From: Cohaesibacter sp.
Lineage (GTDB): Bacteria > Pseudomonadota > Alphaproteobacteria > Rhizobiales > Cohaesibacteraceae
DNA: 64,000 bases
Direction: 5' to 3'
NCBI GenBank assembly: GCA_025800145.1
Contig: JAOXSH010000065.1
Coordinates: 1 to 64,000 of the forward strand
Shown: one piece after another, positions 3,121 through 43,802 of the stretch
Position numbering within the stretch: the first letter of the stretch is position 1
How the letters are laid out: each line of letters begins with the position of its first letter
The notes under the pieces: generated by a model
Seen by the model: only the letters and a program-made list of their open reading frames with translations
The model's database searches: none
What the model was told of the DNA's origin: nothing
Made by a program: the position numbers and the translations under genes

Positions 3121-3741
3121 TTGCTTGAATTATATTTTGCGCCAAACACCATTTCCATCGCAATTGCCATCGCGCTGGAAGAAAGCGGCTTGGACTATTG
3201 CACCAAACCCGTCAATTTTGCCGCATCCGAGCAAATGAGCGAGCCTTATGCCAGCCTCAATCCCAAAGGGCGCGTTCCCACATTGGTGACCGAGCATGGC
3301 CCCTTGACGGAAACTGGCGCTATTTTGGACTATATCCATAGCCTTGCCCCACAAAAAGGCCTTGTGCCATCTGACGTGCTTGCCAGCGCCAAAATGCGCG
3401 AAGCCATGTTCTATTTTGCTTCCACCATGCATGTGAACCACGCCCACAAATTGCGCGGCTCCCGATGGGCCGATAAAGAGGCAAGCTGGGAAGATATGCG
3501 CGCCAAAGTCTCCCAAACCATGACAGCCTCTTGCGACTATGTAGAGAAAAACCTCATCAAAGGCCCCTTTATATTGGGAGAGACTTTCTCCCTCGCAGAC
3601 CCTTATCTTTATATGATCTCAACATGGGCAACAGGCGATGGGGTGGATCTTTCGCGCTTTCCCAAATTGCTGACCCTGATGGCAGAAATGGAAAAACGCC
3701 CTTCAGTGCAAGCCGTTAAAGCCGCCAAAATGCTCTTTTAA
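3121..3741 (+). CDS. Glutathione S-transferase
   Basis: The 206 residues show a GST N-terminal thioredoxin-like domain (LELYFAPNTIS, PKGRVPTLV, then ETGAILDYI for glutathione binding) and an all-helical C-terminal domain with LADPYLYMISTW. The start is TTG at 3121, behind a GGGGAAGG ribosome-binding site. It begins 12 bases after the homocysteine methyltransferase stop, so the two may be co-transcribed. Bacterial GSTs conjugate or reduce electrophiles with glutathione in the cytoplasm, but this sequence does not reveal the substrate. A family-A repeat begins directly after its stop codon. Confidence 0.92.
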   Translation: MLELYFAPNTISIAIAIALEESGLDYCTKPVNFAASEQMSEPYASLNPKGRVPTLVTEHGPLTETGAILDYIHSLAPQKGLVPSDVLASAKMREAMFYFASTMHVNHAHKLRGSRWADKEASWEDMRAKVSQTMTASCDYVEKNLIKGPFILGETFSLADPYLYMISTWATGDGVDLSRFPKLLTLMAEMEKRPSVQAVKAAKMLF

Positions 3742-3878
3742 GAGCCTGACTTAAGCGTCCTTGGCCTAGCCCTCTCCCCCACCCAACCACCGGTCATGGT
3801 ACCCTAGTGGGTGGTTGGGTGGGGGAGAGGGCTGGAAATGTAGCCTAAAAGCCTCATTCCGAGGCTTTTAAATCGGAC
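3742..3878. repeat. Interspersed palindromic element, family A copy 1
   Basis: The element opens with GAGCCTGACTTAAG and closes with GGCTTTTAAATCGG, roughly inverted ends. Its core (3768-3833) has perfect 24-bp arms, AGCCCTCTCCCCCACCCAAC.. paired with ..GTTGGGTGGGGGAGAGGGCT. Related cores lie at 18495-18566 and 60757-60828, and isolated ends at 20038, 31370, 36077, 38613 and 62217. As RNA it would form a very stable hairpin and could protect or end the upstream transcript. Confidence 0.85.
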
Positions 3879-3904
3879 AAGTGATACAAAACCGGAGACT
3901 GACC

Positions 3905-9547: not shown

Positions 9548-9990
9548 ATTATCTAAATCTATAAAATCTTATCTATAAATATAGAATATTAAGGAGACAA
9601 AAAAGTCAAATCTTTAAATTTATCAATATATTCAACCAGATAATGAATTTTCACATTTTCCTTTTTTTCCCCTGCACTGTCAATCAAACTAAGCGCCAAA
9701 TACATCACATTTATGAGTTTACATCCTAGCAGACAGGCGAATGCCAAAGGAGCTTTGTTGCCTATACCAGATGATTTATACCAACGGCATGAAAGATTAC
9801 CCCATATGACCGGATTTTATGCCGTTGGTATTAGAGCATATTTTCCGAAAAGTGTGTGCGATTTTCGAACAAATTATACTTAGAAAAAAGACTGAAGCAT
9901 TTTGAATAACGACGTGTTTATTCAAAATACTCTAGACACGGGCAAGATCATCCAAGCTTCTTCACCCTTGCCACCTGTCTGCAAACACAT
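9548..9990. promoter_or_regulatory. rtcR-rtcB divergent intergenic region
   Basis: This 440-base gap separates divergent rtcR and rtcB and must hold both promoters. The rtcR-proximal 200 bases are AT-rich. I looked on the plus strand for a -24/-12 element (GG, ten bases, GC) and found none with exact spacing; the nearest, GGAGCTTTGTTGC at about 9749, is one base short. The right part is filled by repeat families B and C. Confidence 0.5.
9778..9934. repeat. Family B palindrome joined to family C element
   Basis: ATACCAACGGCAT (9778) and ATGCCGTTGGTAT (to 9831) are perfect 13-bp inverted repeats around CCATATGACCGG. Directly after comes a family-C element, from GAGCATATTTTCCGAAAAGT to TTCAAAATACTCTAG. 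The pair lies in the rtcB leader and may affect its expression. Confidence 0.8.
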
Positions 9991-26581: not shown

Positions 26582-27211
26582 TCAAAATGGCGATGGCGCA
26601 TACCAGGCATAAGCCAGCAACCCGGCAACACCGAACAAAACACCAATCAAAAATGTCAGCAATCCACTGCCGCCATTTTTACGGACCTCAGCCCCAGCCC
26701 CAGCCCCAGCCCCAGTCCCAGTCCCAGCCCCAGTCCCAGCCTGTGAGGCAACAAGATCTGCCGCAGGTTCCGCTGCCACATTTCCAAGCTTGTCCATCAA
26801 ATCGTCACTCTCAAGCGCTTTTTCCCGCTCAATGATCCGACGGGCCAAATAATGCGTCACACAATCGGCCATGATCTCAACATCATGGCTCTCTTTGATC
26901 AGCACTCGGCCCATGCGTGTATCTTTGACAAAGCGATAATGGCGTTTGTCCCGCCCCATTTCGACAAAGCCAAGAAGATCGACCCAAAAGCGCGGCTTGG
27001 ACCCCGGCACAATGCGCAAAAGCGCCTGTTCCATATCCTCCGGCAATTCGGCACGCACCTCTTCCAACGCCTCATCAAGAAGCTCAAGTCTGGCCCGTTC
27101 CGTATCTCCCAGCTCAACCACAACGCTGTCCTGATCCACATCTTTCAGGCGCACCTCACGAACAGCCCGCTTCAAGCTACGCTTTGGCGAGGCTTTTTTC
27201 TGCTCTTCCAT
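26582..27211 (-). CDS. Unrecognised protein with repeat linker and C-terminal membrane anchor
   Basis: I do not recognise this gene of about 209 residues. A charged N-terminal part (EEQKKASPKRSLKRAVREVRL) is followed by an alpha/beta-looking region (VVVELGDTERARLELLDEAL, FWVDLLGFVEMGRDKRHYRFVKDTRMGRVLI). A Gly-Ala-Thr linker from a six-base repeat and one C-terminal helix (GLLTFLIGVLFGVAGLLAYAWY) complete it, so it is probably tail-anchored with the bulk in the cytoplasm. AGAGG before the ATG at 27211 supports that start over 27277. No homology-based function is offered. Confidence 0.7.
   Translation of the reverse strand: MEEQKKASPKRSLKRAVREVRLKDVDQDSVVVELGDTERARLELLDEALEEVRAELPEDMEQALLRIVPGSKPRFWVDLLGFVEMGRDKRHYRFVKDTRMGRVLIKESHDVEIMADCVTHYLARRIIEREKALESDDLMDKLGNVAAEPAADLVASQAGTGAGTGTGAGAGAGAEVRKNGGSGLLTFLIGVLFGVAGLLAYAWYAPSPF
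26689..26741. repeat. Six-base tandem repeat (CAGCCC/CAGTCC)
   Basis: About nine units of CAGCCC, some changed to CAGTCC, encode the Gly-Ala-Thr linker of the tail-anchored protein. All are in frame, so unit gain or loss changes linker length without a frameshift. Confidence 0.85.
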
Positions 27212-28520: not shown

Positions 28521-28681
28521 TAGGTTGAGGACTCATATTCTTTTCGCTTTCGGTCTTTCTGTGCTGTTTGAGTTCAAGGCGCAAAACTGCCGGAAATCTG
28601 GTTGATTTTCAAAGTTTTGCAACGCTGAAATTGAGCAGCACAGAAAGACCGAAAGCGAAAAAAATATGAACTCTCAACCTA
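28521..28681. mobile_element. 161-bp near-perfect palindrome, MITE-like
   Basis: The left arm (28521-28587) opens TAGGTTGAGGACTCATATTC and the right arm (28614-28681) is its inverse with few changes. A central 26-bp run (TTTTCGCTTTCGGTCTTTCT..) is exact. The ends are TAGGTTGAG..CTCAACCTA around a loop of about 26 bases. Long terminal inverse arms, no coding capacity and TA at both edges suggest a miniature inverted-repeat element of the IS630/Tc1 type; this is inference. Similar ends occur at about 507 and 63101. It separates the divergent hydrolase and flippase genes. Confidence 0.6.
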
Positions 28682-28757: not shown

Positions 28758-30227
28758 ATGAATGGGCCCAAAGACAACCAACATCATCCAATCAGCATGA
28801 CATCACACAAAGCCAAGAAAAATGCGCCACCCAACCGGGACAAGGCACAGGACAAGGCCCAGAACAAGGCCCAGAACAAGGCCCAGAACAAGGCAATGAA
28901 GCAGCAAGCCATGCTGGCCTTTGCCATTCGTCTGGCCGGGGCTGGTTTGCTCTATCTTGTGCAAATCCTGTTGGCCCGGCTCTTGGGGCAAAAAGAGTAT
29001 GGCCTTTATGCCTTGGTATGGGTTTGGGTCATCATGCTCAGCCAATGTGCCTGTATGGGCTTCAACACAGCCATTTTGCGTTTTCTGCCCGGCTATAGCA
29101 TCAAGGCACAGACAGAAACAGCCCGCACCTTTGTGATCACGGCCCGCGATACAGCCCTTGGCTTTGCCTCTCTTTTTGCCATCCTTGGCCTGTCTGGTAC
29201 CTATCTCTTCTCAAACTGGCTGGACCAAACGCAGCTTTGGCCCATCTATCTTGGCATGGCCTGCTTGCCGCTTTTCGCCTTGGGAGAAATTTACGAAGGG
29301 GCCGCCTTGGCCCGCTCGCGCATTTTGACCGCGCTTTTGCCCTCCTTCATTCTGCGCCCTTTGCTGGTGGCGCTTGGCCTTATCATCGCCAGCATATCCG
29401 GCTTGCCAACAACAGCCACCACCGCCATGCAAGCGGCCTTGCTTGCCACAGCTCTGGCAACCATCATACAAGTGATTGGGGCAAACAAGGCCCTGAAAGC
29501 AGAATGGGGCCCTGAAACAAAGATCAAAAAAGCCCGCCCTGAACAGGCAAGGCATTGGTTCAAAACAGCAGGACCCTTGGTGCTACTGGATGGATTTTAT
29601 CTCATCACCATCAATGCCGATATCATCTTGCTGGGCCTTTTGCTCGGCCCAGAACCAATCGCCATCTATTATGCCTCGGTCAAAACACTGGCATTGGTCG
29701 CCTATATCCATTTTGCCACCAGTCTGGTCGCCGCCCGCCCCTTTGCCGATTTGTTCGCCACCCAAACGGATATAGCGCAGATCAATGCCCTTTATCGCAA
29801 AATGACCCACTGGACCCTCTGGCCCTCACTGGCAACAGCCGCATTGATCATAATAGCAGCACCCTATATTCTGGCTTTGTTTGGCCCCGATTATGATCAC
29901 GGCCTGCCGGTCATCGCCATTCTATCCGTTGGATTGGTCATACAGGGCGCGGCTGGCCCCGTTCAAAATCTGCTCAACATGGCGGGAGAAGAAAAATCAT
30001 CCGCCAAATCAGCCTTCATCGCCATGGCCGTCAATATCAGTTTCAATCTGTTGCTCATCCCGATCTGGGGCATATATGGCGCAGCCCTTGCCACCACCAT
30101 TGGCACCACCACACAAGCTATGATGATGCTCACACAAGCCCATAAAAAACTGGGCTTACGGCCAGCCTTTCTGCCACAAACAAAGCCACACCTCACGCAG
30201 CGCCAGAAGATTTACCAAGCCCATTGA
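28758..30227 (+). CDS. Oligosaccharide flippase / polysaccharide biosynthesis membrane protein
   Basis: This 489-residue protein has about 12-14 membrane helices of the Wzx/MVF type: LAGAGLLYLVQILLARLLGQKEYGLYALVWVW at the N-terminus, and IWGIYGAALATTIGTTTQAMM near the end, typical of flippases. It would move a lipid-linked glycan across the inner membrane. No glycosyltransferases are near, so the glycan is unknown. The N-terminal tail has five copies of a 12-base unit giving KAQN/KAQD. The start is 28758 or the ATG at 28797. The 3' end overlaps the convergent TetR gene by 35 bases. Confidence 0.85.
   Translation: MNGPKDNQHHPISMTSHKAKKNAPPNRDKAQDKAQNKAQNKAQNKAMKQQAMLAFAIRLAGAGLLYLVQILLARLLGQKEYGLYALVWVWVIMLSQCACMGFNTAILRFLPGYSIKAQTETARTFVITARDTALGFASLFAILGLSGTYLFSNWLDQTQLWPIYLGMACLPLFALGEIYEGAALARSRILTALLPSFILRPLLVALGLIIASISGLPTTATTAMQAALLATALATIIQVIGANKALKAEWGPETKIKKARPEQARHWFKTAGPLVLLDGFYLITINADIILLGLLLGPEPIAIYYASVKTLALVAYIHFATSLVAARPFADLFATQTDIAQINALYRKMTHWTLWPSLATAALIIIAAPYILALFGPDYDHGLPVIAILSVGLVIQGAAGPVQNLLNMAGEEKSSAKSAFIAMAVNISFNLLLIPIWGIYGAALATTIGTTTQAMMMLTQAHKKLGLRPAFLPQTKPHLTQRQKIYQAH
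28839..28898. repeat. 12-bp in-frame tandem repeat, five units
   Basis: Units of GACAAGGCCCAG or AACAAGGCCCAG, five in a row with small changes, encode the hydrophilic N-terminal tail of the flippase. Confidence 0.85.
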
Positions 30228-31075: not shown

Positions 31076-31152
31076 GGCGGAGTAGCTCAGTTGGTTAGAG
31101 CAGCGGAATCATAATCCGCGTGTCGGGGGTTCAAGTCCCTCCTCCGCTACCA
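31076..31152 (+). tRNA. tRNA-Met (CAU), elongator type
   Basis: This is a full cloverleaf of 77 nt. Acceptor GGCGGAG/CTCCGCT, D-loop AGCTCAGTTGGTTAGAGC, anticodon stem GCGGA/TCCGC with loop ATCATAA (anticodon CAT), T-arm GGGGGTTCAAGTCCCTC, and encoded CCA. A1-type initiator features are absent, so it is the elongator. The type III restriction island begins about 220 bases downstream. Confidence 0.96.
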
Positions 31153-31396
31153 AAATTTCCAATAAAATCAACAAGTTACAATACAGACCCTGCGCAAGCA
31201 TTTTGTGTTTTTACGCTTTTGCAGTTATTTTTTACAAAAATAGCAGAAGCGCAAATGTGGCGTGGTCTCAGCTTTGACACAGATTTGGATTGCCTTTGGC
31301 ACACCAAATTTGATTTTCTAACGCTTTTGATTTTCTAACACTATGGCAAGATGGGTTTGTCTGTCAGTACCTGACTTAAAAATCCTGAGCTGGCCC

Positions 31397-31609
31397 TCTC
31401 GCCAAAGAGAGGGGATTGCCAAGAGCAAGAGCAAGAGCAAGAGCAAGGCCAAGACCAAGGCTGCGGGCAAATACAAGCGACGCGCTCCGGTTTCCCAAGA
31501 CAGAGTGGATCAGTTATTCGCGCTAAAGTCACAGGGGGTAAAACCGCCTGATACAGCAAAACAGCTTTCTTTGGGTCGTTCAACGGTTTATCGATTGATA
31601 AAAGAATAA
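31397..31609 (+). pseudogene. 3' remnant of a serine recombinase (resolvase/invertase)
   Basis: The frame from 31397 reads RQREGIAK, then a run of KSKSKS, then AAGKYKRRAPVSQDRV and a C-terminal HTH (PDTAKQLSLGRSTVYRLIKE) before TAA. This is the end of a Hin/resolvase-type protein. The catalytic N-terminal domain is missing, replaced by a family-A repeat end just upstream. A six-base repeat (AAGAGC) has expanded the normally short AKAKAAGKY linker. It is probably non-functional as a recombinase. Confidence 0.8.
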
Positions 31610-31652
31610 GTGATTTGACCCCGGTTCATAAAGGGGTGAAGGGCAGGATGAC

Positions 31653-33446
31653 GTGACAGAGCTGAACTTTAAAGGCAAAGAATTTGTCTACAACCACCAT
31701 TTGTCTGTTCCAATCCGCCCGCTGGAAATGCATGGCGATAAAGGCATTGGCGACCCTTCGCTTGATAGCAACCTGATCATTCAGGGCGACAATTTGCACG
31801 CGCTCAAGGCGCTGTTGCCTATGTATGCGGGCAAGGTGGACTGCATTTTCATCGACCCACCCTATAACACCGGCAATGAAGGCTGGGCCTATAACGACAA
31901 CGTCAACGCCCCGATGATCAAGGAGTGGCTGGCCGCAAACCCTATTGGGATCGATGACGGCCTGCGCCACGACAAATGGTGCGCAATGATGTGGCCAAGG
32001 CTGAAGTTGCTGCATGAGTTGTTGGCTGAGGATGGCATGCTATGCGTTTCCATCGACGACAACGAGACCCACCGGCTTAGGCATTTGCTAGAGGACATAT
32101 TTGGTGTTGACGGTTTCTTGGCAGAGGTAGTTTGGCGATCCGCGGATAGTTCGAACAACGACGCTAAACGGTTCTCGGTGGATCACAACACACTCTACTT
32201 CTTTTCAAAAGATGCCGATTGGATTTCGGCTAAGTTAGATCGGAGGGAAGAGAACAACGCCCACTACACCAACCCTGACGACGACCCCAAGGGGCCTTGG
32301 TTCCCCGGCAACCTGAGCTCACCAAACCCAAGGGATAACCTCCGTTATACCATCCAGCATCCAGACGGCAGAACGCTGGAGCCGCCGTCGAATGGTTGGC
32401 GCTGGAGCGAAGCGCTGATGGATGAAAAACTTGAAAGCGGAGAAGTCACCTTCTCTGAGAGCGAACGGGGCATTCTTCGAAAGACATACCTAGCTGATCA
32501 GGATGGCTTGTCGCCCTCCACGCTTTGGATCGACTTGGACGAAACCGGGCACAATCGAAACGCCAAGTATGAGTTGAAACGATTGTTCCCAGAGTTGCAA
32601 ACCTCTGAGCTATTCCCAACTCCCAAGCCTTCAAAGTTGATCTCCAAAATCTTGCGTGTCCAAGGCAAGCAAGATGCGGTGGTCTTAGATAGCTTCGCTG
32701 GATCAGCAACCACAGCACACGCTGTGCTTCAAGAGAATGCAATAGACGGAGGCAACCGACGCTTCATCCTTGTTGAGATGGAGGACTATGCTCCCAGTGT
32801 CACTTCAGAACGTGTCCGCCGTGTCATCAATGGCTATGACTTCCAAGGTACGCAAAAGACTGAGTTGCTGCGTGAAAAGCTCTCTTGGTCCAAGATCGAC
32901 AAGGCGGACAAGCTGCGCGATCAGGTGACCGCGATTGAAAACCTGCATGGCCATGAGTTCGACAGAATAGCCAAGGCGGTCAAAGACGATCATCTGGTTG
33001 TGACCGGTGAAAAGAAGGTGGCCAACCGCGCCGAGGGGCTGGGTGGTAGCTTCACCTATTGCACCCTTGGTGACCCGATAGAGCTGGACGCAATCCTGAC
33101 CGGCGAAAGCCTGCCGGACTGGAAAGCATTGGGCCGCATCCTCTTCCACATGGCCACCAGCCAGCCGCTGGATGCAGGCACGATGGAGGAAGGGCGGTTT
33201 TATCTCGGCACTCATGCGGGCACCCATGTCTGGCTGATCTACAAGCCCGATCTGGATTGGCTCAAATCGCCCGAGGCAGCACTGAACCTGTCCTTCGCCC
33301 GTGCTGTGGCCAAAGGTGCCCCCGATGACCGGCACATTGTCTTTGCCCCGGCCCGTCATGTCAGCCAGAAGATGCTGGCCGATCAAGGCCTTCCAGTTGA
33401 GTTTGCTCCTCTTCCCTTCGCCCTCTATCGATTGGAGCGTGATTAA
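31653..33446 (+). CDS. mod: Type III restriction system methyltransferase (Mod)
   Basis: The 597 residues form a beta-class N6-adenine/N4-cytosine methyltransferase. The catalytic motif DPPYNTGN lies near residue 73 and the S-adenosylmethionine motif LDSFAGSATTAHAVL near residue 345. A target-recognition region lies between and after. It starts with GTG at 31653 behind GGGCAGG. Mod sets the recognition sequence and protects host DNA, and also guides Res. It overlaps res (TAATG). The recognition site cannot be read from the sequence. Codon use differs from the flanks, consistent with transfer. Confidence 0.93.
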   Translation: MTELNFKGKEFVYNHHLSVPIRPLEMHGDKGIGDPSLDSNLIIQGDNLHALKALLPMYAGKVDCIFIDPPYNTGNEGWAYNDNVNAPMIKEWLAANPIGIDDGLRHDKWCAMMWPRLKLLHELLAEDGMLCVSIDDNETHRLRHLLEDIFGVDGFLAEVVWRSADSSNNDAKRFSVDHNTLYFFSKDADWISAKLDRREENNAHYTNPDDDPKGPWFPGNLSSPNPRDNLRYTIQHPDGRTLEPPSNGWRWSEALMDEKLESGEVTFSESERGILRKTYLADQDGLSPSTLWIDLDETGHNRNAKYELKRLFPELQTSELFPTPKPSKLISKILRVQGKQDAVVLDSFAGSATTAHAVLQENAIDGGNRRFILVEMEDYAPSVTSERVRRVINGYDFQGTQKTELLREKLSWSKIDKADKLRDQVTAIENLHGHEFDRIAKAVKDDHLVVTGEKKVANRAEGLGGSFTYCTLGDPIELDAILTGESLPDWKALGRILFHMATSQPLDAGTMEEGRFYLGTHAGTHVWLIYKPDLDWLKSPEAALNLSFARAVAKGAPDDRHIVFAPARHVSQKMLADQGLPVEFAPLPFALYRLERD

Positions 33447-36034
33447 TGCGCCAGCTTGACTATCAGGCCCGCGTTCTCGACACGCTGGACACCTATCTGA
33501 AAGAGCTTGCCGACGCCAAAGCCCTTGCAGACCAACAGGAAACGGCGCTAAAGACCTTGGGCGATGCCGCCAAGGGCATGGTCATTCCCGATTTTGCCGA
33601 GGCAGCATGGGGCAAAATGCAGACGGCAGGCAAGCTGCCCGCGTCACGGGCTGATATACCCTTCTCGCCGCGTCATGATGGAACGGGCCGCGTGGTGCCC
33701 AATGTCACGTTGAAGGTGCCCACGGGCGGTGGCAAGACCTATCTGGCAACCAATGGCGTCTCCAAAGTGCTTGCCAAATATCTGGGGCATAACACGGGCT
33801 TTGTCCTGTGGATCGTGCCGAATGAAGCGATCTACACGCAGACGCTCAAGCACCTGAAAGACCGCGAACACCCCTATCGGCAGGTGCTGGACCGCGCATC
33901 GGCCTTTCGCACCAGGATCATGGAAAAGGGTGACCGTCTGAATGCCGTGGATGTAGAGACACATCTTTGCGTCATGGTGTTGATGCTGCAATCGGGCAAC
34001 CGTGAGAACAAGGAAACCCTGCGCATGTTCCGCGACCGGGGCGATGTGCACGGGTTCTTCCCACCAGAAGGCGAGCAACAGGCGCACAGGAAAGCGTTTA
34101 AGCAGACGCCCAACTTGGACGGCTACAAGGACGATCTTTACCCGATGGTAAAGGATAGCCTTGGCAATGCCCTTCGCGTGATCCGGCCTGTGGTGGTGAT
34201 GGATGAAGGGCAGAAAGCAACCTCGCAACTGGCCTATGACACGCTTTACGGTTTCAATCCGTGCTTTGTTCTGGAACTGACGGCAACCCCCAAGGATGTG
34301 AAGGCGACCAATACGAAACCCGCACGGTTCGCCAATCTGTTGGTCGAGGTCATGGGCCGCGAACTTCATCAAGAAGAGATGATCAAGATGCCCCTGAACC
34401 TTGACCCAAGGCAGGGCACTGATTGGCGCACAACGCTGACAGCAGGCTTGGACAAGCTCAATGAGCTGGACGCTACGGCACGCGCCTTCACCGCCGAGAA
34501 AGGCCCCACGCGATACATACGACCCATCATGCTGGTGCAGGTGGAGCGAACCGGCAAAGAACAACGCGACGGTGAACATATCCACTCTGAGGATGTGAAA
34601 GAATGGTTGCTGACGGCGGGGCTGGATGAAGCCGAGATAGCGATTAAGACCGCAGAAAAGAACGACCTTAACCAGCCTGAGAACCTGGACCTTCTGAGTG
34701 ACAAGAACCGCGTGCGCGTGATTGTCACCAAGTCCGCGCTTCAGGAAGGCTGGGACTGCCCGTTTGCCTATGTCCTGTGTTCCCTGTCGGCGTCTTCCAA
34801 TCTGTCGGCCATGACCCAACTTGTTGGCCGCATCCTGCGCCAGCCACATGCGCTCAAGACTGGCGTTGATCCGCTGGATGAATGCTATGTCATCACCCAC
34901 CATGCGGACACCGCCGTCGTTGTGGCATCCATCAAGAAGGGATTAGAGGCCGATGGCCTAGGGGACATGGTTCTGGCCGTCTCAGGCGATACAGGGGCCA
35001 CTCCGCGCGTCGCGCGGGCTATCAAACGCCGTCCAGAGTTCGAGAAGCTGGACATCTTCTTGCCCAAAGTGCTTTGGCTGGGCGATGGAGAGCCGCGCGA
35101 GTTTGAATATGAAACCGACCTGTTGGCGCGGCTTGACTGGCGTGGCTACGATCCAACCCCCACCGCCCGGCGCGTTCCTGAGAACCCGATAGCCGCCATA
35201 TCGCAGCTTCAACGGATCAGTTTGGCCAATGATGGTGATGAGTTGCTTGAGAACAAGCCGGTTGCAGCAAGCCACGAGGCCGTCACCTTTGATCCATCCT
35301 ACGTTGCACGGGTGATATCAGACCTTGTGCCAAACCCGTTCGTCGCACGGTCCATCGTGGCCGATCTGTTGACGGCCTTGCAGGCCCGTGGCTTCGATGA
35401 CGCCAAAATAGGCACCGCGACCGGCATCATCATCAGCTTGTTACGTGAAGACTTGGACAAAGAGCGTCTGGCACGCTCTGAGGCGCAGTTTAAAGATGAT
35501 CTATCCAGCGGCCTGATCCACTTCCGCCTTCGTATCGATGGCCAGAACTGGCATATGCCCAAGACGATCACAACAACCGAACCAGAAGGCGCTGACATGC
35601 TGGCAAACAAGAACGGTCTACCACTTGAGCGGAACCTATTTGCCCCGGTCTACAAGGCGGAACTGAACGAAGATGAGCAGCGGGTTGCGGTTATGCTGGA
35701 TGACGCATCCACGCTCAAATGGTGGCACCGCAACGCGGTCGGGGCCTATGGCCTTCAGGGCTGGCGGCGTGGGCGGATTTATCCTGACTTCCTGTTCGCC
35801 GTTAAACGTGCCGGTGAAGATGGTGAGGTCATCGCTTTGGAGACCAAGGGTGATCACCTTCAGAATGAAGACACAGACTATAAAAGTGCTTTGCTGCAAG
35901 CTTTGACGGATGGTTTCGCGTGGGACAACACGACGCCCGTGGGCCAGTTAGAGCTGACCAACACAGGGGAAACCATGCGCTGCGACCTGATATTGATGAA
36001 AGACATCAAGGCCGATCTGCCGGGCCTACTATAG
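33446..36034 (+). CDS. res: Type III restriction endonuclease subunit (Res)
   Basis: This 862-residue protein has an SF2 helicase core: Walker A VPTGGGKTYLA near residue 95, a motif II-like VVMDEGQK, SALQEGWDCPFAYVLC and the motif VI region QLVGRILRQPH. At the C-terminus a PD-(D/E)xK nuclease is seen (IYPDFLFAV..VIALETKG). Res with Mod moves along DNA and cuts unmodified inverted sites using ATP. The length is near the family norm and all catalytic parts are present, so the system looks intact. It shares one base with the mod stop. Confidence 0.93.
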   Translation: MRQLDYQARVLDTLDTYLKELADAKALADQQETALKTLGDAAKGMVIPDFAEAAWGKMQTAGKLPASRADIPFSPRHDGTGRVVPNVTLKVPTGGGKTYLATNGVSKVLAKYLGHNTGFVLWIVPNEAIYTQTLKHLKDREHPYRQVLDRASAFRTRIMEKGDRLNAVDVETHLCVMVLMLQSGNRENKETLRMFRDRGDVHGFFPPEGEQQAHRKAFKQTPNLDGYKDDLYPMVKDSLGNALRVIRPVVVMDEGQKATSQLAYDTLYGFNPCFVLELTATPKDVKATNTKPARFANLLVEVMGRELHQEEMIKMPLNLDPRQGTDWRTTLTAGLDKLNELDATARAFTAEKGPTRYIRPIMLVQVERTGKEQRDGEHIHSEDVKEWLLTAGLDEAEIAIKTAEKNDLNQPENLDLLSDKNRVRVIVTKSALQEGWDCPFAYVLCSLSASSNLSAMTQLVGRILRQPHALKTGVDPLDECYVITHHADTAVVVASIKKGLEADGLGDMVLAVSGDTGATPRVARAIKRRPEFEKLDIFLPKVLWLGDGEPREFEYETDLLARLDWRGYDPTPTARRVPENPIAAISQLQRISLANDGDELLENKPVAASHEAVTFDPSYVARVISDLVPNPFVARSIVADLLTALQARGFDDAKIGTATGIIISLLREDLDKERLARSEAQFKDDLSSGLIHFRLRIDGQNWHMPKTITTTEPEGADMLANKNGLPLERNLFAPVYKAELNEDEQRVAVMLDDASTLKWWHRNAVGAYGLQGWRRGRIYPDFLFAVKRAGEDGEVIALETKGDHLQNEDTDYKSALLQALTDGFAWDNTTPVGQLELTNTGETMRCDLILMKDIKADLPGLL

Positions 36035-36061
36035 GGATAGTATGGAGAGCGCACCAAACTT

Positions 36062-36105
36062 ATACCGTTGGTATTAGAGCCTGATGTAAAAGTCCTGAGC
36101 CAGCT
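36062..36105. repeat. Family B half palindrome and family A end at right edge of island
   Basis: ATACCGTTGGTAT (a deleted family-B unit) is followed by GAGCCTGATGTAAAAGTCCT (family-A end), directly after the res gene. Confidence 0.7.
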
Positions 36106-36138
36106 ATCACACTTGCATAGCATTAGGACATAAACAAA

Positions 36139-38418
36139 TCAGGCAATGCGCAGGCCATTGGGAGCGGATTTGGGCACAAGGTGATGGGCCTCAACAGGCT
36201 TGGAGAAATAATAGCCCTGAATGTCATCACATCCAAGATTGGACAACAACTCAAGCTGTTCCTTGGTTTCCACCCCTTCTGCCAAAACTTTCAGGCCAAG
36301 GCTGTGCCCCATGGCAATAATAGCAGAAATAATGGCCGTCGCGCTTTTATCGCTCAGAATATCCCGGATGAAACTGCGATCAATCTTGAGCGTATCAATG
36401 GGGAAATGGCGCAGATAATTCATAGAGGAATAAGCAACCCCAAAATCATCAATAGACAAAGAAAAGCCAAGCTCTTTTAACCGTGTTAGCAATTTGGCTG
36501 AATAAGCCGGATCTTCCATCAGCCATGTCTCGGTAATTTCAAATTCAATCCGTTTCGGATCAACACCACTGACTTGCAGCAAATTTTCCAGATCATACAT
36601 AAAGCCAGCCGCCATCAACTGACGCCCGGACAAATTGATCGAAACAATTTCTGGTGCCTGATCCACTGACTGCCAGATAGAGAGTTGCTGAAACACCGAT
36701 TTCAGAACAAAATGACCCAATTCACAAATCTGACCGGTTTCTTCTGCAATGGGAATGAATTGTGCAGGACTGATAACGGTCTCACCATCCAGACGCCAGC
36801 GCAACAAGGCCTCCGCTCCCACCATCTGACCATCGCGAGCAGAATGCTTGGATTGATAGACCATGAAAAATTGGTCTTTCTTCAATCCCTTATTCATCAG
36901 CATCATCAAGGTTGCTTCATTGTCAGCCTTTTCGCACAAGGCATCATGGAAAAATTCAAAGCGATTTCGACCCTGCGCTTTCGCATGATAAGTCGCCAAA
37001 TCAGCATTGCGCAAAAGCCCTTTGATATCCTCTCCATGCTCAGGATAAAGCGCAATCCCAACTGAAGCGGAAATCGAAATCGTCTGCCCCTCAATATCGT
37101 AAGGCTTGGCAAGAGAGGATAAAATATCGCGCGCAATCTCGCTCGATTGAGCAACAACATCGACATCTATGCCTTTGGGCTGAAACACAACAGCAAATTC
37201 GTCTCCCCCCAAACGGGCGGCATAAGCCTTACCTCCCGTGCAAATGCGCAAACGATCCGCCGTCATACGCAGCAAAATATCCCCCGATGCATGACCCATA
37301 CGATCATTGACAGCCTTAAAGCCGTCCAGATCCATGAATAAAAGAGCAAAGCGGGCGTCTTGATCGCGCTGCTCACTCAAAACCTGCTTCAGCTTATCCT
37401 GAAAATGCGTACGGTTGGGCAAATCCGTGCCCATATCATAATAAGCAAGGCGCTTGATACGCTGCTCGGCATATTTGCGTTCGGAAATATCCGAAAAGAT
37501 CATAATATAATGCTTATTCTCGCCGGTTGCCGGATCAACAACCCCTTTGAGCGTGCAATCGACGGGAAAGACATTGCCATTTTTGGGTTTGACCAACAAT
37601 TCCCCGGACCAAAAGCCCGTTTTCAAAAGTTCAATCGTCAATTTCCGATAAAAGTCATCGGCTTCCCAATCAGAACGAAGCAAAAAAATATGCTGACCAC
37701 GGGCTTCCTCTTCCGTCCAGCCTGTCATTGTCTCAAATGTGCGATTGGCTTTGATAATATGCCAGTCATTGCGCACAATCAGCACGATATCATGGCTATT
37801 TTGAAAAACACTCGAAGACAGCCGCAATTCCTGCTCAATCAAAGAGCGCTCCAATTCATGGGAAATACGATCCGCAAAAAGCTGCAAAAGAGGATAATTC
37901 CAGTCATCAAGCTCCATAGGCTCGGTGTCGCAAATCACCACAAGCCCAATAGCCTCTCCTTTGCTGTTTTTGAGAACCGACCCATAATAGCTTTGCAGGC
38001 CCATCTCGACCAGCAAGTCATCGTCAGGATATTGATGCAGCAACCCGGAGGCAACATAAAGCTCACCCCTTTTGAGCACCTGCTGGCAGGGCGAGCCACA
38101 GAGCGGATACACCATATTGTCGCTCATCTGCCCATCCGCAAAGCACGAAATGGTCTGAATATGGCTCATGCCGCTCATATCCTGCAACATACCAATAAAG
38201 GCATAGCGACTGCCATAAGCTGTTGAAATCTGTTCAATACAGCGACGAAGGAAAACATCTTTTGTCTGACTGGGGACGGAAATGGCCAACAAGGCCTGAA
38301 AAGCCCGCTGAAATTTGTCATTCTTAACCAGAAGCGAGCGATCCGATGCCAAAAGCTCAGACATGGGAAATATCCGCTCTGATGCTGGTTTTGAATCGTC
38401 AAATGCCATTCTGATCAC
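36139..38418 (-). CDS. GAF-PAS-GGDEF-EAL cyclic-di-GMP enzyme
   Basis: The 759 residues form four domains: GAF (about 30-200), PAS (205-330), GGDEF (335-500, with ARLGGDEFAVVF) and EAL (505-755). The EAL residues needed for hydrolysis are all present: GAEALLRW, INLSGRQL, EITETWLM, DDFGVAYSS, TLKIDRSF, EGVETKEQ. The GGDEF motif is intact, but no RxxD inhibitory site precedes it. It could make and break cyclic-di-GMP in the cytoplasm in response to GAF/PAS signals. No membrane segment is seen. It is divergent from pyrC. Confidence 0.95.
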   Translation of the reverse strand: MIRMAFDDSKPASERIFPMSELLASDRSLLVKNDKFQRAFQALLAISVPSQTKDVFLRRCIEQISTAYGSRYAFIGMLQDMSGMSHIQTISCFADGQMSDNMVYPLCGSPCQQVLKRGELYVASGLLHQYPDDDLLVEMGLQSYYGSVLKNSKGEAIGLVVICDTEPMELDDWNYPLLQLFADRISHELERSLIEQELRLSSSVFQNSHDIVLIVRNDWHIIKANRTFETMTGWTEEEARGQHIFLLRSDWEADDFYRKLTIELLKTGFWSGELLVKPKNGNVFPVDCTLKGVVDPATGENKHYIMIFSDISERKYAEQRIKRLAYYDMGTDLPNRTHFQDKLKQVLSEQRDQDARFALLFMDLDGFKAVNDRMGHASGDILLRMTADRLRICTGGKAYAARLGGDEFAVVFQPKGIDVDVVAQSSEIARDILSSLAKPYDIEGQTISISASVGIALYPEHGEDIKGLLRNADLATYHAKAQGRNRFEFFHDALCEKADNEATLMMLMNKGLKKDQFFMVYQSKHSARDGQMVGAEALLRWRLDGETVISPAQFIPIAEETGQICELGHFVLKSVFQQLSIWQSVDQAPEIVSINLSGRQLMAAGFMYDLENLLQVSGVDPKRIEFEITETWLMEDPAYSAKLLTRLKELGFSLSIDDFGVAYSSMNYLRHFPIDTLKIDRSFIRDILSDKSATAIISAIIAMGHSLGLKVLAEGVETKEQLELLSNLGCDDIQGYYFSKPVEAHHLVPKSAPNGLRIA

Positions 38419-38803
38419 TCACCCGAATATAGCTAGGCTCAGGTCTCATTCATGTCAAATAAACTACAAGGTCTTGCGCGCTACAGTGAAGAGAAAATCT
38501 TAAAAAACCGGAACTCAGACGAAATTAAAACGAAATTTGGTCCAAAATCAGGTGAAATTGTTCAAGATCAGTCAAAATAAACCATAAATAATACAAAACC
38601 GATCAAACTCCTCTTGGTGCCTGATTTACAATCTTGATAAGACTTTTAAATCAGGCACCAAGAATCATCATCTTCCTGCATTCTTTCGCAAAGAACCAAG
38701 CAAGCCAACAAAACCAGCCTCTGGCGCATTTGCCGGTTGTTTTTCACTGCCACTCGCCGTAAGAAAAACAAACATTTCAGGACCATTTCACAGGAGTAGC
38801 ACA
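38419..38803. other. Divergent gap between the GGDEF/EAL gene and pyrC
   Basis: No gene is seen. It contains the family-A-type palindrome at 38613-38662, and must hold promoters for both neighbours. Confidence 0.5.
38613..38662. repeat. Short palindrome made of two family A ends
   Basis: CTTGGTGCCTGATTTA and TAAATCAGGCACCAAG are perfect 16-bp inverse arms around an 18-base loop that includes AAGACTTT. It looks like a family-A element reduced to its two ends. Confidence 0.75.
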
Positions 38804-43661: not shown

Positions 43662-43705
43662 ATACCAACGGCACGAAAGATTAACCCATATGACCGGATT
43701 TTATT
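43662..43705. repeat. Family B repeat, partial
   Basis: ATACCAACGGCACGAAAGAT continues into CCATATGACCGGATTTTAT, but the right inverse arm is lost. Confidence 0.7.
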
Positions 43706-43802
43706 GGCCAGATTGAGTCAAAATGCCAGAAGCATCAAAATTATTCACCTCCCACCCGATGAAAAACAGCAAGCGCACTTGCTTTCCCCCCAAAGCAGGA
43801 AT

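Follow-up and report, generated by a model that had tools for sequence, protein, structure and literature searches.

How did a complete type III restriction-modification (RM) pair come to lie between two direct repeats beside a tRNA-Met gene in Cohaesibacter sp.? The window, the whole 64,000-nucleotide stretch analyzed here, had been read in the initial annotation as carrying an island that entered, or was trimmed, by recombination between those repeats, a route different from that of tRNA integrases. The evidence points instead, with high probability, to a decayed, horizontally acquired type III RM module that was gained after the split from the sister genome G005.

The locus opens with an intact tRNA-Met gene (CAT; 31076–31152, + strand; called by ARAGORN), an integration hotspot in G005, and its native 3' flank (31153–31243, +), which is common to the outside of attR in that genome. 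A degenerate half copy of a dispersed repeat, family A, follows 214 bp downstream of the tRNA (31366–31400, +; left end only), and then the C-terminal remnant of a serine resolvase (31400–31609, +), mod (31653–33446, +), and res (33446–36034, +). The right border (36062–36104, +) consists of a fragment of a second repeat, B, and a family A half copy (36076–36104), beyond which the gene for a PAS-GGDEF-EAL protein (36139–38418, − strand) forms the conserved right flank. The interval 31241–36138 is in all likelihood an acquired segment that holds the type III module in the order mod to res and, as first annotated, tRNA-Met adjoins it.

Gene content and composition of the mod-res pair

The genes are adjacent and co-oriented, with the start of res overlapping the stop of mod by 1 nt at 33446, and their order is the same in nearly all relatives. 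Both are complete, as the initial annotation held: they are full length when compared to 21 (Mod) and 36 (Res) relatives, and their catalytic motifs are intact. Mod, a 597-aa beta-class DNA methyltransferase, matches N6_N4_Mtase (PF01555) and PADLOC MTase_III (E = 2.5e-208). An alignment of 22 sequences places DPPYNTG near residue 68, LDSFAGSATT near residue 348, and a variable middle region (residues 160–320) between them, which is the type III arrangement of a DPPY motif N-terminal to the SAM motif with the target recognition domain between the two. Res, an 862-aa restriction subunit, matches ResIII (PF04851) and PADLOC REase_III (E = 3e-176) and carries VPTGGGKT, DEG, QEGWDCPFA, QLVGRILRQP, and YPDF...LETKG; the corresponding motifs (KVPT-GGKT, DEG, QEGWDCPFA, QL-GR-LRQP, YPDF...LETKG) are kept in at least 95% of 37 sequences. 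These supply the Walker A, DExx, helicase V/VI, and PD...ExK elements of an SF2 helicase/translocase joined to a PD-(D/E)XK nuclease.

Solved structures exist for related proteins, among them EcoP15I Mod and Res (4zcf) and the Mods of other type III systems. The likeness to EcoP15I and EcoP1I extends to a mod gene beside res, a Mod with DPPY before the SAM-binding FxG and a variable middle, a Res that combines helicase motifs with a PD...ExK nuclease at its C terminus, and matches to chains A and C of 4zcf and to phage P1 mod (29%), but the pair is distant in sequence and its Res is shorter (862 aa versus 970 in 4zcf). By every feature that can be tested in sequence, then, mod-res is a type III system. 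Systems of this class methylate one strand at a short asymmetric site, and their cleavage requires two sites and ATP. No promoter or terminator signal above chance was detected in scans of the sequence upstream of mod.

Codon use in the pair differs from that of the flanks, in agreement with the initial annotation. GC3 is 0.644 in mod and 0.674 in res versus 0.558 ± 0.030 in 29 long background ORFs, about 3–4 SD over the neighbors and the highest among the selected window ORFs. Within the genus (18 genomes, own included), only G007 has a further Mod match, a distant one (38%), and any match at all was found in 17 of the 199 genomes searched, again including the own genome. The Res tree groups the window protein with those of Marivita and Nioella (support 98/97) within a Rhodobacterales group. 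A horizontal origin appears well supported by this GC3 deviation, the lack of a close homologue in the other searched genus members, and the nesting of Res among Rhodobacterales, and the source pool was probably another, Rhodobacterales-like alphaproteobacterium. The best identities among full-length relatives are only about 60–71%, too low to name a donor. The nearest sequences in the Res tree, from Marivita sp. XM-24bin2 (L096) and Nioella ostreopsis (L102), share gene order and gene lengths with the window pair and have Res proteins about 67% identical to it.

A plasmid or phage origin was also considered and is unsupported, with best matches below 60% identity. Two full-length matches at 45% are 4-Mb Proteus records, evidently chromosomes, and phage matches to mod-res, such as P1 mod, are partial only.

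The tRNA-Met site and the route of entry

The sole close sister genome, G005 (64% complete), matches window positions 43779 to 36138 at 92% and, at 94%, the sequence that runs leftward from 31166; its EAL protein is 94% identical to that of the window. Only 147 bp separate the tRNA 3' flank from the EAL stop codon in G005, and this interval contains neither mod-res nor a family A copy. The initial annotation had expected a sister strain to show an empty site with one repeat copy; G005 provides the empty site and no repeat. Two patterns that it had named as contrary, the same genes at this place in a sister and two repeat copies at an island-free site, were not seen in G005 (zero copies). The outer spacers of the window (31244–31365 and 36035–36138) have no convincing homology to the 147-bp spacer, so the exact insertion edges are not fixed. 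In genomes G010, G017, and G018, the EAL homologue has no tRNA-Met nearby, and they therefore add no further empty site. Behind the same tRNA, G010 (L202) carries prophage-like sequence that includes a tail-collar gene and an IS5-type transposase.

G005 has an island of its own, 11.4 kb long, in the 3' end of tRNA-Met (L174 7755–14000 and L178 1–5301). An intact tRNA-Met is followed, in this order, by genes for a tyrosine integrase, a serine resolvase, a C5 methyltransferase, and an Eco29kI-family endonuclease, and the island closes with a repeat of the tRNA 3' end. The two loci share a chromosomal neighborhood and the combination of an RM system with a serine resolvase, but the G005 system is Type II, comes with a tyrosine integrase and an att duplication, and lies within the att site and not beyond it. 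Window positions 31130–31243, directly behind the tRNA, correspond to sequence outside attR in G005 (flank alone, E = 1.8e-4). Since native flank directly follows the tRNA, the att site in the window is unoccupied, with no visible entry of the type III pair there, and the pair lies beyond it. The tRNA 3' end is not repeated near 36.1 kb or elsewhere in the window, and no ORF between the tRNA and the EAL gene encodes a tyrosine integrase such as that of G005. The segment as it stands thus lacks the att duplication and the integrase of a tRNA-targeting island, and the initial annotation holds on this point, that the segment is at present no standard tRNA-att integrant.

It is possible, though a good deal less likely than not, that the module nevertheless arrived by the route seen in G005, integration into the 3' end of tRNA-Met, and that a later rearrangement removed the integrase and the att copy and moved the module past the native flank. 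In G005 this tRNA-Met does harbor an integrase island, whose RM system is a different one, and relatives of mod-res occur in tRNA islands, one of them at a tRNA-Met with an integrase (L095). After a simple att insertion, however, the RM genes should have the flank on their right, and in the window it lies immediately behind the tRNA; a second tRNA 3' copy is also missing near 36.1 kb.

The surroundings of related pairs bear on the vehicle. A tRNA is present in about half of 44 scanned loci with related mod-res, a figure that proves little alone and that counts a doubtful tRNA-Pyl call in L165. In L131 (tRNA-Leu) and L095 (tRNA-Met), an integrase lies just behind the tRNA and a tRNA-end copy of 15–21 bp lies beyond res. 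The two nearest relatives, L096 and L102, are near tRNA-Cys with genes for the antirestriction protein ArdC and a relaxase, which the window does not have. Type III systems are over-represented in ICEs and IMEs (Oliveira et al., PMC4176335). No element end, integrase, relaxase, or target duplication is visible at the window locus, and we therefore infer the vehicle from these relatives: the likeliest would be an integrative or mobilizable element, now decayed.

That mod-res was ancestral at this site and was deleted in G005 is improbable. A loss would agree with there being one close sister only, and that one 64% complete, and with intergenic sequence on either side that does not align to it. 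Against this, composition and the Res phylogeny indicate a foreign origin, and the other searched genus members have no close homologue, which favors a gain over a loss.

Repeat family A and the left junction

Family A is a MITE-like repeat: it is short (~144 bp), has 19-bp terminal inverted repeats around a strong internal palindrome, occurs in at least 55 copies, and has no coding capacity. Most copies have T-N-A at both junctions, and no clear direct target duplication was seen at them. Its 17-base core occurs 55 times in the own genome. Whole-element matches number 79 in the own genome, 68 in G005, 63 in G010, 2 in G017, and 0 in the other 14 genus members, counts that include internal-palindrome matches on the opposite strand and so exceed the true copy numbers. 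In the window, a family A copy lies at 3737–3881, and a 20-bp inverted repeat at 38612–38663 has arms like the family A ends and is possibly a very short derivative. Repeat B (ATACCAACGGCATGAAAGATTA) occurs at 1929–1950, 9778–9799, and 43662–43683, among other positions, and abuts family A in places.

Same-orientation family A ends do border the segment, as the initial annotation stated, and as a repeat match they are above chance (three matches to the 17-mer observed versus 0.19 expected). Both are left halves only, with different truncations, and they differ from the left-end consensus at 6 of 29 positions (31366–31394) and 1 of 29 positions (36076–36104). Pairs of this kind are ordinary in the genome. 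Same-orientation family A neighbors 3.8–7.3 kb apart occur in five more cases, one of which, 4.6 kb apart, encloses rpoD and dnaG (L204). Random placement predicts ~3.3 same-orientation pairs within 8 kb genome-wide, and a 64-kb window with five copies should hold ~0.65 such pairs within 4.8 kb, with at least one in 52% of windows. Because chance expects such pairs, the border pair is no evidence of a mobile unit. The copies are truncated, diverged, and absent in the sister, unlike those of a repeat-bounded (MITE or composite) mobile unit; the border repeats look like common genome litter, members of a high-copy family scattered over intergenic spacers in this lineage, and are very unlikely to have carried the genes.

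Entry by homologous recombination, in which a circle or fragment with one family A copy recombines with a chromosomal copy to leave an island between direct repeats, or trimming by the same means, is consequently very unlikely, and this part of the initial annotation fell. The same-orientation ends near the edges of a segment missing from G005, and the fusion of the left end to a truncated resolvase, had made it attractive. The sister site, however, has no family A copy, the two border copies share no full element, their homology spans only ~29 bp at roughly 80%, and an equal pair encloses housekeeping genes. The broader proposal that family A acts as portable homology, through which defense modules could enter, or be trimmed, in a spacer beside a tRNA with no integrase involved, is likewise very unlikely.

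The truncated resolvase noted at the left end in the initial annotation was recovered as ORF 31343–31609, which retains the C-terminal HTH (PF02796), lacks the catalytic domain, and can be aligned with the resolvase of G005 from residue 126 onward. The left family A half copy stops at CCCTCTC and continues in frame as RQREG..., where the C-terminal part of the resolvase begins. A deletion with one end in the repeat and the other in the resolvase gene would be the simplest reading of this junction, which has the look of an illegitimate join rather than of recombination between repeats. The junction suggests a decayed element and offers a weak foothold for trimming, by a path other than the two border repeats. 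A resolvase was rejected as a constant component of the mod-res module, since the relatives gave no match to the remnant at E ≤ 1e-3 and a resolvase similar to that of G005 occurs in only 5 of 80 loci.

A CAAGAG hexanucleotide array of 6.7 copies (31420–31459, +) lies in frame within the remnant. Tandem arrays of 6- or 12-nt units also lie within window ORFs at 26689–26741 and 28840–28894. The G005 orthologues at 26.6 and 28.8 kb are without most of the array, and such in-frame arrays seem to expand in the own lineage. Separately, a 56-nt inverted repeat (28521–28681; 86% complementary, 49-nt spacer) sits between an alpha/beta-hydrolase-like gene and a polysaccharide flippase gene, where the G005 alignment breaks (28523/28683).

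Defense-gene turnover at the tRNA-Met locus

On the reading we prefer, that of a decayed acquired module, mod-res would have been brought by a mobile element from an alphaproteobacterial, probably Rhodobacterales-like, pool and, once this lineage had parted from that of G005, would have become lodged in the spacer that separates the flank of tRNA-Met from the EAL gene. The element would then have decayed, losing its integrase, relaxase, and att duplication until the resolvase end alone was left, and a deletion would have joined the left family A half copy to that remnant. Judged from their families, Mod would methylate adenine at a short asymmetric site, and its complex with Res, an SF2 translocase joined to a PD-(D/E)XK nuclease, would cut incoming DNA that lacks this mark; the pair may be active.

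A comparable case is known from Pseudomonas syringae pv. actinidiae, in which an acquired 7-kb region that another strain lacks carries a type III system and, within the region, a copy of a 102-bp MITE that is present in high copy number (PMC6053426). There, too, the MITE is an insertion and not the means of entry. Abundant MITE-like repeats beside an island need not have moved it. In this close genome pair, one tRNA-Met neighborhood holds two unrelated RM systems, that of G005 still in an integrase island within the att site and that of the window decayed and beside it, making the tRNA-Met locus a small, clean case of defense-gene turnover at a hotspot.
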